Shown here in pieces: positions 42,927-50,454 of a stretch of DNA of 64,000 nucleotides. The number at the start of each line of letters is the position of its first letter. The stretch's first letter is position 1. Location of the stretch: the NCBI GenBank assembly GCA_943789455.1, contig CALSUE010000007.1:62001-126000 (forward strand). Reading direction: 5' to 3'. A program made the translations under genes and the position numbers. A model generated the notes under the pieces. That model saw only the letters and a list, made by a program, of their open reading frames with translations. It did no database searches and was not told the DNA's origin. Source of the DNA: an uncultured Flavobacteriaceae bacterium. GTDB lineage: Bacteria > Bacteroidota > Bacteroidia > Flavobacteriales > Flavobacteriaceae.

Positions 42927-43628
42927 ATGGTTTCACAAAAAAAATCTCAAGCTCAAATCATCTACCTTGTTTTAGCAGCTCTATTTGTTGCTTCATTGGT
43001 AACTTCCAATTTAGTTTTTCAAAAATTCTTTTATTGGTATCCTTTTGACGCTAAAGTTTTTGGAGTTAAATTATTTGAAGTTTCTGTAGGCTTATTGCCT
43101 TATCCCATTACTTTTTTAATTACAGATGTCTTATCAGAAATTTACGGGAGAAAGAAGGCTAATCATGTAGTGATTGCTGGGATTTTTGCTTCTTTATTTT
43201 CTTTGGGAATTATTTATGTTTCCATGGCTGCTCCATCTACTTCTTGGTCTGTGGTTAATGACAATACTTTTATTGAAGTGTTTGGTGCTGCTCCTTTAGC
43301 AGTTTTAGCCTCTATGATGGCCTATTTATTTGCTCAGTTTATAGACATTAGAGTCTATCATTTTTGGAAAACCCTCACTAAAGGAAAACACCTGTGGTTA
43401 CGAAATAATTTTTCAACCTTTACCTCTCAAATTATAGACACACTAACTGTTTTGATACTGCTTTGTTCTTTTGATATTATTGCTTGGGATAAATTTTATG
43501 GGTTATTGGTTAGTGGGGTTATTTTTAAAATGATGATCGCCGCATTAGACACCCCTATTTTATATGTTATTGTCTTTTCATTTAGAAAACATTTTGGTTT
43601 AAAAATGGGAGAAGAAATAGAAATTTAA
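42927..43628 (+). CDS. queuosine precursor transporter (YhhQ/DUF165 type)
   Basis: A 233-aa membrane protein for uptake of queuosine precursors such as preQ0 or preQ1. It shows the family pattern: LAALFVASLVTSNLVFQKFF, the PYPITFLITDVLSEIYGRKKA motif, AVLASMMAYLFAQFIDIRVYHFWK, and NNFSTFTSQIIDTLTVLILLC. Six hydrophobic segments are visible. Its presence with queA at 60.5 kb suggests both uptake and synthesis of queuosine. Its 3' neighbour, the broken DUF547 gene, starts nine bases later, so it may head the arsenosugar transcript. Confidence 0.88.
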   Translation: MVSQKKSQAQIIYLVLAALFVASLVTSNLVFQKFFYWYPFDAKVFGVKLFEVSVGLLPYPITFLITDVLSEIYGRKKANHVVIAGIFASLFSLGIIYVSMAAPSTSWSVVNDNTFIEVFGAAPLAVLASMMAYLFAQFIDIRVYHFWKTLTKGKHLWLRNNFSTFTSQIIDTLTVLILLCSFDIIAWDKFYGLLVSGVIFKMMIAALDTPILYVIVFSFRKHFGLKMGEEIEI

Positions 43629-43637
43629 ATTTGTTTT

Positions 43638-44392
43638 ATGAAGTATAAACTCACTACAAATTTATATCTAAATGATATATTTAAAACTCAATTAATAACA
43701 TTAATATGCATGCTGATCTTTGTTTCAAGTCAAGGTCAAACCTTTATTTTTGACAGTTTACTGAAAAACAAATGTGGATGAAAATGGAATGGTAGATTAT
43801 CAATCTATTAAAAAACAATGAACCAATTTTAGATAATTATTTAGCGTATCTACAGCAGGCTAAACCCGCTAAGGATTGGTCGTTAAATAAAGAAAAGGCT
43901 TATTGGTTAAATACTTACAATGCCTATACCATTAAAATTATTTTAACCAATTACCCCTTGAAAAGTATCAGAGATATTAAAATAGACGGAAAAACAGTTT
44001 GGAAGATTCCTTTTATAAAAGTTGGTGAAAAAACGTATACACTAGACTGGATTGAGCACGAAATCTTACGAAAAAAATACAATGATCCAAGAATTCATGT
44101 GGGTATTAATTGTGCTTCTATGTCTTGTCCTAAATTAGGAAACTTTGCTTTTTCCGAGGATAATATAGAAACCGCCTTAGACAATTTAATGCTAGAATTT
44201 ATAAACAACGAGAATAGAAATAAAATAAGTGAAAATAAATTAGAACTGTCAAAAATTTTTGATTGGTTTTCCATTGATTTTACAAAAAATGGAACGCTAA
44301 TAGATTATATAAATAAATATGCGAGCATAAAAGTAAGTGAAAAAGCAAGCATAAAATACCTAACTTACGACTGGAGTTTGAACATTAAATAA
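43638..44392 (+). pseudogene. DUF547 protein gene broken by two frameshifts
   Basis: Three frames together spell one DUF547 protein. From ATG 43638 a signal peptide (LITLICMLIFVSSQGQT) and FIFDSLLKN run to a TGA at about 43779. The next frame carries VDENGMVDYQSIKK from 43774. A further shift near 43811-43816 leads into NEPILDNYLAYLQQAKPA from 43817, and on through the DUF547 core (AYWLNTYNAYTIKIILTNYPLKSIRDI, CASMSCPKLG, FDWFSIDF) to the stop at 44392. Each shift equals one extra base, next to A runs. It may be a true pseudogene or two sequencing errors. DUF547 function is unknown. It sits seven bases before the arsenosugar genes. Confidence 0.82.
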
Positions 44393-44399
44393 AATTTTT

Positions 44400-44735
44400 A
44401 TGTCTAAAACATATTATAACCCTGCCGATTTACGAAAATTTGGCAATATAACTGAGTGGAGTGAAGAGCTTGGAAATAAATTCTTTGAGTATTATGGAAA
44501 AGTATTTGAGGAAGGAGCGCTAACTGCTCGTGAAAAATCATTGATCGCATTAGCCGTAGCTCATACAGAGCAATGCCCCTATTGTATAGATGCCTATACA
44601 AAAGACGGCTTACAACGAGGGATTACAAAAGAAGAAATGATGGAAGCTGTTCATGTGGGTGCCGCCATTAAGAGTGGTGCTACTTTAGTGCATGGAGTTC
44701 AAATGATGAACAAAGTGAACAAATTGGAAATGTAA
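44400..44735 (+). CDS. AhpD/carboxymuconolactone-decarboxylase-like protein of arsenosugar cluster
   Basis: A 111-aa helical protein of the AhpD-like superfamily. The core LTAREKSLIALAVAHTEQCPYCIDAYTKDG has the redox pair C59-x2-C62 and His55, followed by GITKEEMMEAVHVGAAIKSGATLVHG. It matches the small peroxidase-like proteins found next to arsS in arsenosugar clusters. A thiol-dependent peroxidase or reductase role on arsenic or thiol intermediates is my inference. The arsS start follows one base after its stop. Confidence 0.85.
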   Translation: MSKTYYNPADLRKFGNITEWSEELGNKFFEYYGKVFEEGALTAREKSLIALAVAHTEQCPYCIDAYTKDGLQRGITKEEMMEAVHVGAAIKSGATLVHGVQMMNKVNKLEM

Positions 44736-44736
44736 C

Positions 44737-45792
44737 ATGAGTAAAAAATCACTTTTAGCTAGAAATAATGATCTAGCCAATACAAAAAGACAAATAGAGG
44801 TTTTATCCAACGGACAATTTGCCAATGGAGAATTACCAACATTTGCAAAAAAAATAGCAGCCACAAATCAATTTCCATTACGTCCAAAGAAATTAGAAAT
44901 TTTACAAATTAACATGGGTTATATGTGCAATCAAGTTTGTGCTCATTGTCATGTTGATGCTGGTCCTGACAGAAAAGAAATTATGACCAAAAAGACCATG
45001 CAAGAATGTTTGAATGTTATCAAAAAAACAGGAGCACATACACTTGATTTAACAGGCGGAGCTCCAGAAATGAATCCAAACTTTAGATGGTTTGTTGAAG
45101 AAGCTGCCAAGTTAGGCATCAACGATTTTATTGTTCGCTCCAATCTAACAATTATAAGAGCCAATAAAAAATTTCACGATTTACCAGAATTCTTTAAAAA
45201 ACACACTATTCATGTAGTGAGCTCAATGCCTCATTGGACGAGAGGTAAAACAGATAAGCAAAGGGGTGACGGTGTGTTTGATAAATCTATACAAGCGCTT
45301 CAAGAATTAAATGCTGTAGGATATGGAATTCCAGGAAGTGACCTAAAACTTGATTTAGTTTACAATCCATCAGGTGCTTTTTTACCAGGAAATCAAAAGG
45401 CTTTAGAAAATGATTTCAAAAAGGCACTTAGAGAGGAATTTAATATCAATTTCAATTCTTTATTTGCCATAACAAATTTACCTATAAGTAGATTCTTAGA
45501 TTATTTAATTGCTTCAGAAAATTATGAAGACTACATGTATGCATTGGTAGAGGCTTATAACCCTGAAGCAGTAAAAAATGTAATGTGCACCAATACACTT
45601 TCCGTAAGCTGGGATGGATGGCTCTTTGATTGTGATTTTAATCAAATGCTCAACTTAAAAGTAGCTAGTAAAGTAAACCACATATCAGTCTATAACGAGA
45701 AGTTATTACAAAATAGAAATATTATCATCAATCAGCATTGTTATGGTTGCACAGCTGGTGCTGGGAGTAGTTGTCAAGGAGTTGTTGCGTAA
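44737..45792 (+). CDS. arsS: arsenosugar biosynthesis radical SAM enzyme ArsS
   Basis: Radical SAM enzyme thought to transfer the 5'-deoxyadenosyl group of SAM to a methylated arsenical. The cluster-binding motif C64-x3-C68-x2-C71 sits in NMGYMCNQVCAHCHVDAGP, followed by LDLTGGAPEMNP (SAM-contact GGxP-like). The C-terminal DUF3641-type part has more cysteines (MCTNTLSVSWDGWLFDCDFN, HCYGCTAGAGSSCQG) for likely extra FeS centres. Length 351 aa. It overlaps the downstream glycosyltransferase start by one base. Confidence 0.92.
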   Translation: MSKKSLLARNNDLANTKRQIEVLSNGQFANGELPTFAKKIAATNQFPLRPKKLEILQINMGYMCNQVCAHCHVDAGPDRKEIMTKKTMQECLNVIKKTGAHTLDLTGGAPEMNPNFRWFVEEAAKLGINDFIVRSNLTIIRANKKFHDLPEFFKKHTIHVVSSMPHWTRGKTDKQRGDGVFDKSIQALQELNAVGYGIPGSDLKLDLVYNPSGAFLPGNQKALENDFKKALREEFNINFNSLFAITNLPISRFLDYLIASENYEDYMYALVEAYNPEAVKNVMCTNTLSVSWDGWLFDCDFNQMLNLKVASKVNHISVYNEKLLQNRNIIINQHCYGCTAGAGSSCQGVVA

Positions 45793-46403
45793 TGAATTCA
45801 AAAAATCTATTACTAATTTTTACCCGAAATCCAGAATTAGGAAAAGTAAAAACACGTTTGGCAAAATCCGTTGGAGATAAAACAGCCTTAGATATTTATC
45901 ATTTTTTATTACATAAAACTAAAGAGGCAACTAAAAATATATCTTGTGATAAGACAGTTTATTATTCTAAAAAAATTATAAAAGATGATCTTTGGAATCG
46001 ATCAAATTATCACAAAAAAGAACAATTTGGTAATGATCTTGGAGAAAAAATGAAAAATGCTATTGACGATGGTTTCAAGAAAAAATACAAAAAAATAATA
46101 CTTATTGGGAGTGATTTATTCGATTTAAAACCCTCTCATATTAATGATGCTTTCAAAAAATTAGACCATAATGATGTTGTTATTGGCCCTGCTACAGACG
46201 GAGGTTATTATTTAATTGGTCTAAAAAAATTACACCTAAAAATCTTTGAGAATAAAAATTGGGGATCGTCAACAGTGAGAGAAGATACTTTAAAAAATTT
46301 AGAAAAAGTTGATGTACATTTGTTATCAATGTTAAATGACGTTGATGTCATTGAAGACATCGAAAACCATTCTGCTTTTACTAAATTCTTAAAACCTAGA
46401 TGA
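45792..46403 (+). CDS. TIGR04282-type arsenosugar glycosyltransferase
   Basis: A 203-aa nucleotidyl/glycosyl transferase-fold protein of the TIGR04282 type. The family start LLLIFTRNPELGKVKTRLAKSVG is followed by EQFGNDLGEKMKNAI, ILIGSDLFDLKPSHI (acidic metal site) and VVIGPATDGGYYLIGL. In the pathway it would join the arsenic-bearing ribose to a sugar or glycerol acceptor; the acceptor is inferred. I start at the ATG overlapping the arsS stop (45792). It ends in an ATGA overlap with the phosphorylase gene. Confidence 0.87.
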   Translation: MNSKNLLLIFTRNPELGKVKTRLAKSVGDKTALDIYHFLLHKTKEATKNISCDKTVYYSKKIIKDDLWNRSNYHKKEQFGNDLGEKMKNAIDDGFKKKYKKIILIGSDLFDLKPSHINDAFKKLDHNDVVIGPATDGGYYLIGLKKLHLKIFENKNWGSSTVREDTLKNLEKVDVHLLSMLNDVDVIEDIENHSAFTKFLKPR

Positions 46404-47215
46404 AAAAACAACAGCTAAAAGAAACCATAGACTTTTTAAAATTAAAAGGGTTTCAAAATCCAGAAATTGGAATTGTATTAGGTACAGGTTTAGGGCAATT
46501 AATGAATGAAATTGTTATTGAACAAGAGATTGCCTATGCAGACATTCCACATTTTCCAAAAGCAACTGTAGAGTTTCATTCTGGAAAATTAATATATGGA
46601 ATACTTTCAGGAAAAAAAGTGATTGTAATGTCTGGTAGATTTCATCTTTACGAAGGATACAATTATTGGGAGGTAACCTATGGCATTAGAACAATGCATC
46701 AATTAGGAATTACTACGTTATTAATTTCAAATGCAGCAGGAGCCATCAATTTATCCTACAAAAAAGGAGATTTAATGCTTATTGATGATCATCTCAATTT
46801 GCAAGGAAACTCGCCTTTAGCATTTGCTGAAGTTGGTGAATTTGGAGAACGTTTTGCAGACCTATTAGAACCTTATTCTAAAAAAATTAATCGGGTACTG
46901 AAATCAATCGCAAAACAAAACGACATTAAGCTTCAAGAAGGGGTTTATGCGGGTGTTTTTGGTCCACAATTAGAAACTAGAGCTGAATATAGAATGCTAC
47001 AAATTTTGGAAGTTGATGCTGTTGGAATGAGCACAGTACCTGAAGTTATTGTTGCCAAACATTTAAATTTGACCTGTGCTGCAATTTCAGTATTAACAGA
47101 CGAATGTGATCCCAAGAATTTAGCTCCCGTAAACATCGAGGAAATCATTAAAATAGCAGGAAAAGCAGAACCTAAAATGATCATATTATTTAAAGAATTG
47201 ATAAAACAATTATGA
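46400..47215 (+). CDS. purine nucleoside phosphorylase, MTAP-like specificity residues
   Basis: A 271-aa PNP/MTAP family enzyme that splits nucleosides with phosphate. The motifs VLGTGLGQLMNEI, MSGRFHLYEGYN and ISNAAGAINLSYKKGDLMLIDDHLN (phosphate and ribose sites) are clear, as is VGMSTVPEVIVAKHLN. By alignment with human PNP, Glu201 is kept (E192), Asn243 is Asp (D234) and His257 is Ile (I246). Asp at the first site favours 6-aminopurines, and an aliphatic residue at the second favours nucleosides with no 5'-OH. That fits removal of adenine from the ArsS product. It overlaps both neighbours by four bases (ATGA). Confidence 0.92.
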   Translation: MKKQQLKETIDFLKLKGFQNPEIGIVLGTGLGQLMNEIVIEQEIAYADIPHFPKATVEFHSGKLIYGILSGKKVIVMSGRFHLYEGYNYWEVTYGIRTMHQLGITTLLISNAAGAINLSYKKGDLMLIDDHLNLQGNSPLAFAEVGEFGERFADLLEPYSKKINRVLKSIAKQNDIKLQEGVYAGVFGPQLETRAEYRMLQILEVDAVGMSTVPEVIVAKHLNLTCAAISVLTDECDPKNLAPVNIEEIIKIAGKAEPKMIILFKELIKQL

Positions 47216-48180
47216 GTTACTTAGAGACTACACATAATGTATACAAAGAAGCTGCACTAACCCCTGATGTTGGACTGTGTTGCACAACAAATCCTATTTG
47301 GGAATTACCAGGGTTAAAAATTCCAAGAATTATGCAAGAAATGAACTACGGATGTGGTTCTACTGTGCATGCTCGAGACTTAACCAACAACCCAAAAATG
47401 CTATATGTTGGTGTTGGTGGTGGAATGGAACTACTGCAATTTAGTTATTTCAATAGGCAAAAAGGAGGTGTTATTGGATTAGACGTCGTTGATGAAATGT
47501 TAGAAGCTTCACGAAAAAATTTTATTGAGGCTGAAGAAATGAACCCTTGGTTTAAATCTAATTTTGTAGACCTTCGAAAAGGTGATGCATTGAACTTACC
47601 TGTAGAAAATAATTCAATTGATGTTGCTGCTCAAAACTGCCTGTTTAATATTTTTAAATCAGATGATTTAAAAAAAGCAATTGCTGAAATGTATCGCGTG
47701 TTAAAACCCCATGGACGTTTGGTAATGAGTGATCCAACTTGCGAACAACCCATGAATGCTAAATTACGTAATGACGAACGTTTACGTGCACTCTGTTTAA
47801 GTGGGAGTTTACCTATTAATGAATATGTAAAAGCATTAACCAATGCCGGTTTTGGAACTATTGAGATCAGAGCTCGTAAACCTTATAGAGTATTAGATCC
47901 AAAAAATTATCCAACAAATGAATTGATTTATATAGAATCTATTGAAGTTGCTGCAATTAAAGATCCAATGCCAAAAGATGGACCATGTGTTTTTACGGGA
48001 AAAGCTGCAATTTACTATGGTGATGATGATTTTTTTGATGATGGTGCTGGACATACTTTATTAAAAAATCAACCCTTGGCTATCTGTGATAAGACAGCTA
48101 CGGTATTAAAAAACTTAAATAGAGATGACATCTACTTTTCTGAATCTACTTTTCATTATGATGGAGGGGGTTGTTGTTAA
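47212..48180 (+). CDS. arsM: arsenite methyltransferase ArsM of arsenosugar pathway
   Basis: SAM-dependent enzyme that methylates trivalent arsenic. The SAM loop MLYVGVGGGMELLQF lies near residues 63-77, with GLDVVDEML after it. Cys48 (NYGCGS), Cys143 (QNCLFNIF) and Cys195 (LCLSGSLP) sit where ArsM needs its three arsenic-binding cysteines; the 143-195 distance matches known enzymes. A CC pair at 23-24 and a terminal GGGCC end (Cys321-322) are extra. At 322 aa it has the C-terminal arsenosugar-type extension. It overlaps the phosphorylase gene by four bases. Confidence 0.92.
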   Translation: MSYLETTHNVYKEAALTPDVGLCCTTNPIWELPGLKIPRIMQEMNYGCGSTVHARDLTNNPKMLYVGVGGGMELLQFSYFNRQKGGVIGLDVVDEMLEASRKNFIEAEEMNPWFKSNFVDLRKGDALNLPVENNSIDVAAQNCLFNIFKSDDLKKAIAEMYRVLKPHGRLVMSDPTCEQPMNAKLRNDERLRALCLSGSLPINEYVKALTNAGFGTIEIRARKPYRVLDPKNYPTNELIYIESIEVAAIKDPMPKDGPCVFTGKAAIYYGDDDFFDDGAGHTLLKNQPLAICDKTATVLKNLNRDDIYFSESTFHYDGGGCC

Positions 48181-48197
48181 GAGCTATAAATTTTAAA

Positions 48198-49064
48198 ATG
48201 GATACATACCTAAACATCATTAAAGATTCATTTTCTGGCTATTCAAACTATTTAGCCCGTGAAATCCTGAACCCACATTGGGGCAATTACTTTTATTGGC
48301 TAATTGGTATATCACTTGTGTTTTGGATTTTAGAGGTAGTAATGCCTTGGAGAAAAAATCAAAATAAAATTAGAAAAGACTTTTGGCTGGACAGCTTCTA
48401 TATGTTTTTTAACTTTTTCTTGTTTTCATTAATTGTTTACAATGCCCTCTCTAATGTTGCAGTATTATTCTTTAATAATGTTTTAAAAAGTATAGGTGTT
48501 GACAATCTAGCTTTTTTTAATGTAGAAACGTTCCCTTATTGGAGTCAGTTGTTCATCTTGTTCTTAACACGAGATTTTATTCAATATTTTATTCATAGAT
48601 TATTACATCGCATCCCATTTTTATGGAATTTTCATAAAGTTCACCACTCTGTCAAAGAAATGGGGTTTGCTGCGCATTTGAGATATCATTGGATGGAGAC
48701 TATTGTTTACAGAACTCTAGAATACATTCCATTAGCATTGATTGGTTTTGGTATTGATGATTTTATTTTAGTGTATTTATTCACTTTAGCTATGGGCCAT
48801 TTTAACCACAGTAATATTACTATCCCTTTAGGGCTTTTAAAGTATATTTTTAATAATCCTCAAATGCATATTTGGCATCATGGAAAAAAAGTTCCAAATA
48901 AATTTGGTGTTAATTTCGGGTTAACTTTAAGTGTTTGGGATTACCTCTTTAAGACCAGTTATATTCCATCTGACGGGAGAGATATTGAACTAGGATTTGA
49001 AAATGATGAAAAATTCCCAACGAGCTTTGTAGGTCAAGAAATATATCCATTAGGTAAGAAGTAA
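48198..49064 (+). CDS. sterol desaturase / fatty acid hydroxylase superfamily protein
   Basis: A 288-aa membrane di-iron oxygenase. The histidine clusters are HRLLHR, HKVHHSVKEM, and later HFNHS and HIWHHGKKVPN, in the usual spacing after several membrane helices. The exact substrate cannot be read; lipids or alkyl ethers are family substrates. I use the ATG at 48198, 18 bases after arsM; the frame opens at 48171 inside arsM, but MDTYLN is the better start. Co-transcription with arsM is likely, so a link with arsenic-containing lipids is possible but unproven. Confidence 0.88.
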   Translation: MDTYLNIIKDSFSGYSNYLAREILNPHWGNYFYWLIGISLVFWILEVVMPWRKNQNKIRKDFWLDSFYMFFNFFLFSLIVYNALSNVAVLFFNNVLKSIGVDNLAFFNVETFPYWSQLFILFLTRDFIQYFIHRLLHRIPFLWNFHKVHHSVKEMGFAAHLRYHWMETIVYRTLEYIPLALIGFGIDDFILVYLFTLAMGHFNHSNITIPLGLLKYIFNNPQMHIWHHGKKVPNKFGVNFGLTLSVWDYLFKTSYIPSDGRDIELGFENDEKFPTSFVGQEIYPLGKK

Positions 49065-50028: not shown

Positions 50029-50454
50029 ATGTCTGAAAAAAAAGAACCTAATCTCATCAAATGGGGCTTAAAATACTCATTGAGTGCCGCTGTAGCAGGC
50101 ATACTATGTTGTGTAGCTCCTGCTGTATTATTCATGTTTGGTCTTATGGGTGGTGTTTATGCTATTTCCTTTGCAGACTTTTTCTATGAACAAGATGGCA
50201 GTACTGGTACTGGCTCATTTATTCTAAGAGGTGTTGCTGTTATCATAGGTATATATGGAATTTATGCTTATAGAAAAAAACAGAATCAATGTTCTATAGA
50301 TCCAAATAGAAAACGTAAAAATTTAATCATATTGAGTCTAACAATACTAATTTTAGGAGTAGGTCTTTTTTTCACACTAGAAAAGTGGTCTTCTTGGTAT
50401 TTTGATAAATATATAGTTCCAGAACAACAAAAAGAGTTAAAAATAACCCCTTAG
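50029..50454 (+). CDS. MerT-like membrane protein with vicinal cysteine pair
   Basis: A 141-aa membrane protein with three or four hydrophobic segments. The first, AAVAGILCCVAPAVLFMFGLMGGVY, has a CC pair at 27-28 followed by a Pro, the arrangement of the metal-binding pair in the MerT mercury transporter. The middle loop has YAYRKKQNQCSI, giving one more Cys. The last helix (ILSLTILILGVGLFF) precedes a soluble tail. Metal or metalloid transport is inferred from the CC pair only. It has no merP or merA neighbour. Note the nested inverted repeats upstream. Confidence 0.6.
   Translation: MSEKKEPNLIKWGLKYSLSAAVAGILCCVAPAVLFMFGLMGGVYAISFADFFYEQDGSTGTGSFILRGVAVIIGIYGIYAYRKKQNQCSIDPNRKRKNLIILSLTILILGVGLFFTLEKWSSWYFDKYIVPEQQKELKITP

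Follow-up and report, generated by a model that had tools for sequence, protein, structure and literature searches.

Which enzymes might carry the product of arsenic methylation and radical adenosylation on to an arsenosugar is the question raised by a block of overlapping genes on contig CALSUE010000007.1 of an uncultured Flavobacteriaceae bacterium. The block lies in a stretch of 64,000 nucleotides, here called the window, and all coordinates refer to the + strand of this window. Five genes, coding for an AhpD-like protein, the radical SAM protein ArsS, a TIGR04282 protein, a purine nucleoside phosphorylase (PNP) and the arsenite methyltransferase ArsM, follow one another with spacings of +1, -1, -4 and -4, both -4 junctions being ATGA overlaps. 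In this arsenosugar-type operon of Flavobacteriaceae, PNP is proposed to remove adenine after ArsM and ArsS have acted, and the TIGR04282 protein to activate the resulting sugar phosphate, a proposal whose chances of being right or wrong we judge to be about equal.

The gene block and the proposed pathway

Curated NCBIfam cut-offs described as arsenosugar biosynthesis were exceeded by four of the five proteins (AhpD-like, ArsS, TIGR04282 and ArsM), and those of general purine nucleoside phosphorylase models by PNP. Thus, the cluster type is already known, and with four adjacent families above cut-off the block is classified by the NCBIfam set as an arsenosugar-type operon. A sequence-only reading of this DNA had described five genes in a row with gaps of -4 to +1, forming a single operon-like block of arsenosugar type; the coordinates confirm the former statement, and gaps and NCBIfam scores together support the latter. 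Compared to the NCBIfam set (TIGR04167, NF038099, TIGR04169, TIGR04282 and TIGR04283), the locus differs in that a match to TIGR04283 was not found in the window's genome and in that PNP and a fatty-acid-hydroxylase-superfamily protein (FAH), which match general models only, are built in. These two make the locus a variant of the known cluster type.

The ArsM residues C48, C143 and C195 and the radical SAM motif of ArsS, both pointed out in the sequence-only reading, are present. In alignment with the arsenic methyltransferase structures 4kw7/4fr0 the three residues fall on cysteines, and the CX3CX2C motif reads CNQVCAHC at residues 64-71. ArsS is found above cut-off in a single copy in the genome, where the sole other match reached 36.7 bits, below the cut-off, and its sequence gave no match among solved structures. 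That ArsM methylates arsenic and ArsS transfers the adenosyl group is published, according to statements in PMC12159101 and PMC8552651, and ArsM and ArsS of Synechocystis PCC 6803 are described as carrying out initial steps of arsenosugar biosynthesis (PMC8552651). The window is similar to that system in methylation followed by radical SAM adenosylation, by the published description, and differs in that further candidate steps are encoded alongside.

As published for relatives, ArsM would convert As(III) to dimethylarsenic, and ArsS would add a 5'-deoxyadenosyl radical to it. For the product, which we take to be 5'-deoxy-5'-dimethylarsinoyl-adenosine, a PNP that lacks the histidine binding the 5'-hydroxyl would allow phosphate to displace adenine and to yield 5-deoxy-5-dimethylarsinoyl-alpha-ribose-1-phosphate. 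The TIGR04282 protein, with its CofC-like fold, would turn this sugar phosphate into a nucleotide sugar, from which an inverting glycosyltransferase (TIGR04283 in many relatives, another enzyme here) would form the natural beta-riboside. Phosphorolysis yields an alpha-1-phosphate, nucleotidyl transfer retains this configuration, and an inverting enzyme of glycosyltransferase family 2 (GT2) gives the beta product. The course would thus end in the beta-D-ribofuranoside form known for arsenosugars, which a review lists as beta-D-ribofuranosides (PMC10456119). In its logic, the pair of ArsS and PNP would parallel HpnH and HpnG of hopanoid biosynthesis, in which 5'-deoxyadenosyl transfer by a radical SAM enzyme is followed by removal of adenine by a putative phosphorylase (PMC12583986), the acceptor being diploptene there and arsenic here. 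In the review, adenine removal has the status of a proposal, made for an algal arsenolipid with a nucleosidase in this role (PMC10456119), and in excerpts of the open-licence literature on these gene families and on an arsenosugar phosphorylase no paper was recognised that makes the middle-step assignment.

Gene order around arsS, a check named in the sequence-only reading, was compared in the best 80 among the named ArsS-matching loci listed, each fetched with up to 10 kb per side. By tblastn, AhpD was found near ArsS in 79 of the 80 loci, a TIGR04282-like gene in 77, PNP in 72, ArsM in 60, DUF547 in 53 and FAH in 21. Clustering of open reading frames (ORFs) gave 76 loci for AhpD, 76 for TIGR04282-like genes, 59 for ArsM and 16 for FAH, together with 65 for a rhodanese-domain protein and 29 for a GT2 protein; the TIGR04282-like counts by either route include a more distant paralogue. 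Where the downstream sequence reached 9 kb or more (71 loci), PNP was present in 67. Because the neighbors recur in this manner, chance is ruled out as the source of the gene order.

Predicted roles of the phosphorylase and the TIGR04282 protein

The reference sequence of human PNP was checked against the Protein Data Bank (PDB), and the sequence of human methylthioadenosine phosphorylase (MTAP) was also checked. By alignment, D234, C236 and I246 of the window PNP correspond to human N243, V245 and H257. The roles of residues 243 and 257 are described in PMC9916683 and PMC12648331: PNP binds the 5'-hydroxyl via His257, whereas MTAP ligands almost never have a side-chain hydrogen bond (PMC12648331). 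Residue 257 was Ile in 64, Val in 3 and a gap in 1 of the 68 operon PNPs. Every one of ten ordinary PNPs from the family (44-48% identical, with no operon gene within 1.5 kb) carried His257, as did eight more that were fetched without neighbors. Human MTAP has Val at the 257 position and Asp at the base site, and has Arg and Cys at human positions 203 and 245 in common with the operon type. Thus, the operon PNP, which lacks His257, is predicted to use a substrate with a non-hydroxyl 5' group, and the product of ArsS fits.

The window PNP departs from the ordinary trimeric PNPs, which act on 6-oxopurines and have Asn243 and His257, in carrying D234 and I246 at these positions. It likewise falls short of the methylthioadenosine (MTA) phosphorylase family TIGR01694 (93 bits vs. 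a cut-off of 274.85); its likeness to MTAP is confined to the pocket, where a hydrophobic residue at the 5' site is combined with Asp at the base site, and its sequence is of PNP type. MTAP and NucPNP of nucleocidin biosynthesis act, by published activity, on 5'-modified adenosines (PMC12648331, PMC8694150). NucPNP takes MTA and adenosine and does not take sulfamoyladenosine (PMC8694150); thus, MTA-like activity need not cover other bulky 5' groups.

Two candidate marks of the operon PNP were discarded: Thr at position 33, which proved not to be distinctive, and Asp243 as an operon-specific sign of adenine preference, which ordinary paralogues carry too. Tandem PNP genes were observed in L273, L274 and L280, one copy with Asn and the other with Asp at human position 243.

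A structure model of the TIGR04282 protein had a predicted local distance difference test score (pLDDT) of 94.2. Structural comparison covered the first 1000 chains of Foldseek, with 50 entries listed. Among these 50, the nearest folds were 3cgx, then 7p97, 2i5e and 6bwh, all CofC-like, and these four led the top-scoring glycosyltransferase by 3.7 to 6.3 Z units. The protein also scored above the gathering score of PF01983 (CofC), and by score and fold it belongs to the CofC-like superfamily. It is distinct from the F420 enzyme CofC, 2-phospho-L-lactate guanylyltransferase (TIGR03552, 32.2 bits vs. 105), and is only 13-15% identical to the CofC-like guanylyltransferases Rv2983 (6bwh; FbiD) and 3-phosphoglycerate guanylyltransferase (7p97). 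The residues G106, D108, D136, G137, G138, D183, D185 and D189 were invariant in 40 aligned rows. On the basis of the model, the protein is predicted to be a nucleotidyltransferase rather than a glycosyltransferase; the glycosyltransferase role given to it in the sequence-only reading is unsupported, although the fold alone is not decisive. About a quarter of the loci had a second, more distant TIGR04282-like gene directly after ArsS (L132 11090-11770, L143 11049-11744); two such copies were scanned and reached 104 and 109 bits, below the cut-off of 134.

Distribution and competing explanations

Co-occurrence of PNP with ArsS was examined in 149 Flavobacteriaceae genomes, nearly one per genus, of which 111 have ArsS. 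PNP identity of at least 52% served as a proxy for the hydrophobic type, with the residue itself read in the fetched PNPs. By this approach, the type was detected in 110 of the 111 genomes with arsS vs. 13 of the 38 without it, counts that ignore relatedness, as does the Fisher test applied to them. The distance between PNP and ArsS was at most 15 kb in 92 of the 110 genomes and at most 5 kb in 78. In the 111th arsS-containing genome, a PNP of 47% identity with Ile at 257 lies beside ArsS. Within genus g2, the hydrophobic type accompanied an ordinary PNP in all 3 genomes with ArsS and was found in 0 of the 14 that lack an ArsS above the cut-off. Where PNP was not within 15 kb of ArsS (18 genomes), loci were fetched for 12, the remaining 6 being left out, and the genes beside PNP included TIGR04282 in 12, a TIGR04283-like gene in 11 and ArsM in 10. 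Taken together, pocket residues and co-occurrence strengthen the earlier proposal that PNP acts in a step after ArsS.

Several observations weigh against the assignment of PNP and the TIGR04282 protein to the middle steps. The co-occurrence counts are uncorrected for relatedness and the 52% threshold is only a proxy: an ordinary PNP with His257 reached 51% identity in one genome (G374), and with the Ile257 PNP at 47% this makes the proxy good but not exact. Asp243 is common to both PNP types and hence undistinctive. Hydrophobic-257 PNPs are common across the class in genomes without ArsS, as judged from 30 of 44 listed matches fetched as loci and the rest read only through a second copy inside a fetched locus; thus, the pocket did not arise for arsenic, and from these sequences it is probably older or wider than the operon. 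In a PNP tree built with 25 of the 68 operon PNPs and without human MTAP, the hydrophobic-257 PNPs were placed to the same side of one branch (100 vs. 30 rows) with a Shimodaira-Hasegawa-like approximate likelihood ratio test (SH-aLRT) value of only 77. Among 45 ArsS loci of other families, searched with home-made profiles, AhpD was near ArsS in 37, TIGR04282 in 21 and TIGR04283 in 17 (two of them weak), but PNP in none, over mostly 8 kb per side and with a PNP/MTAP profile (E 1e-6) that would miss MTAN-like proteins. Synechococcus elongatus, a control genome with a PF12345 match, is outside the 13 controls that match PF01048, so that adenine would have to be removed in some other way in at least a part of the ArsS-like lineages. 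In the structural list of the TIGR04282 protein, the remoter nucleotidyltransferases score level with glycosyltransferases, and a shared fold does not establish function. Searches of 33 same-genus genomes gave no TIGR04283 in 23, the window's included.

Two broader claims were dropped on these grounds: that the Ile257 PNP is special to genomes with arsS, which fails beyond the family, as many members of the class have the type but no arsS, and that PNP beside arsS is a general rule, given the 0 of 45 loci outside the family.

Sixteen genomes that have the hydrophobic type but not arsS were inspected. Six of these keep an adjacent TIGR04282 gene, some with rhodanese, DUF547 or TIGR04283-like genes; the other ten, counting against a dedicated role, had no operon gene near PNP in the fetched stretch, which in a few cases was cut off by the contig end. 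Outside the family, rhodanese and TIGR04282 genes stand beside PNP at two loci, in one case in a genome that lacks an ArsS above the cut-off. These copies imply that PNP has a salvage role too, or that PNP and TIGR04282 form a module of wider use. PNP could instead serve the general salvage of 5'-deoxyadenosine, methylthioadenosine or adenosine and stand in the operon to clear 5'-deoxyadenosine as a by-product of ArsS, or by history, while the arsenical loses its adenine to a different enzyme; we consider this unlikely but a serious alternative. The ten genomes just mentioned, the spread of Ile, Leu or Val at 257 across the class without arsS and the activity of NucPNP on MTA and adenosine but not sulfamoyladenosine would be consistent with salvage. 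So would the finding that the genome's single other PNP_UDP_1 match is closest to uridine phosphorylases, though below their cut-off, so that the operon PNP may be the genome's sole purine nucleoside phosphorylase. Salvage sits poorly, by contrast, with the near-constant presence of the type in arsS genomes (relatedness again ignored), with genus g2, where the type occurs only with arsS and on top of an ordinary PNP, and with the overlap of the PNP gene with both TIGR04282 and arsM.

That the TIGR04282 protein is itself the glycosyltransferase, as the earlier version had it, with glycerol or a lipid as acceptor of the arsenical riboside, is improbable in light of the Z-unit lead of the CofC-like entries, the PF01983 score and the separate GT2 gene in 29 of the 80 loci, one of which was scanned and passes TIGR04283. 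Even less credence is given to the idea that the products are not arsenosugars and the enzymes work mainly on another element or metabolite, with arsenic incidental. TIGR04282 and PNP do occur together in some genomes without ArsS over the cut-off and without ArsM in the fetched stretch, but ArsM and ArsS of the window are both above their family cut-offs and ArsM retains the cysteines of solved arsenic methyltransferases. As a separate observation, TIGR04282-PNP clusters without ArsS over the cut-off (L226, L229, L237 and L239-L241), several with rhodanese, DUF547 or TIGR04283-like genes, represent a possible second pathway.

The claim of an almost complete pathway was too strong, as TIGR04283 was not found in the window's genome (best 59 bits vs. 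a cut-off of 182) and the last, sugar-transfer step is thus without an assigned gene; with the genome about 90% complete, a missed TIGR04283 gene is possible. The family was above cut-off in 10 of the 33 same-genus genomes, all ten with ArsS, and the lack of a match in the other 23 indicates that it is not an essential mark of the operon type. Among unassigned ORFs of 24 same-genus loci, three clusters of at least three members were found, none of which read as a glycosyltransferase replacement.

Flanking genes and implications

FAH starts with an ATG at 48198, 17 bases past the ArsM stop. It lay within 20 kb of PNP in 49 of the 60 genomes with a hit of at least 57% identity vs. 1 of 52 with weaker hits, and is a recurrent partner. 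The sequence-only reading had named it as a sterol-desaturase-like gene that could add a lipid step; its place as a partner thus gains support. The protein is not an ornithine lipid hydroxylase OlsE by score (NF052566, 102.2 bits vs. 475), and our guess is that it may act on a lipid part.

Table 1. Genes of the arsenosugar-type block and its upstream flank (window coordinates)
Feature	Coordinates	Strand	Evidence
Queuosine precursor transporter	42927..43628	+	TIGR00697 135.4 bits vs 50.95; ends 9 bases upstream of DUF547
DUF547 gene (PF04784), broken	43638..44392	+	N-terminal part in frame from 43638, C-terminal part 43796-44392 in second frame; six-frame listing; PF04784 E 2.3e-24 on 43796-44392
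AhpD-like protein, CPYC motif (C59, C62)	44400..44735	+	TIGR04169 195.8 bits vs cut-off 120
ArsS, radical SAM, DUF3641 C-terminus	44737..45792	+	TIGR04167 435.5 bits vs 300; PF12345 184 bits
TIGR04282 protein, predicted nucleotidyltransferase rather than glycosyltransferase	45792..46403	+	TIGR04282 208.4 bits vs 134
PNP (purine nucleoside phosphorylase), hydrophobic residue at 5' site	46400..47215	+	PRK08202 325.6 bits vs 218
ArsM, arsenite methyltransferase	47212..48180	+	NF038099 566.2 bits vs 400
FAH (fatty-acid-hydroxylase-superfamily protein)	48198..49064	+	PF04116 99.9 bits; histidine clusters HRLLH, HKVHH, HIWHH

The start of the range 43638..49064 given in the sequence-only reading belongs to a sixth gene, the frameshifted DUF547, which that reading had omitted. 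The frameshifts lie near 43770-43815, where the relative L064 reads as a single open frame, and may represent either decay or an assembly error. The DUF547 protein of one relative was scanned by sequence against solved structures and gave no match. The queuosine transporter gene, which precedes DUF547 in 9 of the 80 best-matching relatives, is perhaps the first gene of the transcript and outside the pathway. Three short stretches were inspected for a Bacteroidota-type promoter by its consensus, and only a -7-like box at 43626 was found, with no matching -33 box.

The closest named locus among the matches listed was that of an uncultured Flavobacterium metagenome-assembled genome (95% in ArsS), with Tenacibaculum and Polaribacter next among the best rows listed. 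L064 and L065, the nearest kin of the window, have an identical gene order. The rhodanese-domain protein found in 65 of the 80 loci (e.g., L066 11094-11594), usually directly after ArsS, is missing from these two and from the window; one such protein was scanned and is above NF045521. In 10-11 of the 80 loci (e.g., L132 11859-18700), an insert between ArsS and TIGR04282 carries a SusC/SusD pair (by Pfam), a membrane protein and a metallophosphoesterase. The membrane protein weakly resembles sodium/solute symporters (39 vs. 184 bits), and relatives of it and of the metallophosphoesterase adjoin ArsS in two other families; L185 and L186 also belong to this observation. The insert could import arsenosugars or phosphate esters. 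Further downstream in the window (50029-50454), a small membrane protein with a CC pair was detected by tblastn only in L064 and L065 among the 80 loci and had only a sub-threshold nicotinamide mononucleotide (NMN) transporter match.

In marine algae and sea food, arsenic commonly occurs as arsenosugars (PMC10456119). ArsM and ArsS cover the first steps of their formation, and the comparison adds PNP and the TIGR04282 protein as candidates for one middle step each, with predictions at the level of residues (PNP) and of fold (TIGR04282) that are testable with purified proteins. A more general reading, which we regard as doubtful, is that PNP and TIGR04282 form a module by which 5'-modified adenosines from radical SAM enzymes would be converted to activated 5-modified ribose for glycosides, arsenosugars being one use. 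If so, the copies in genomes without ArsS would make another 5-deoxyribose glycoside.

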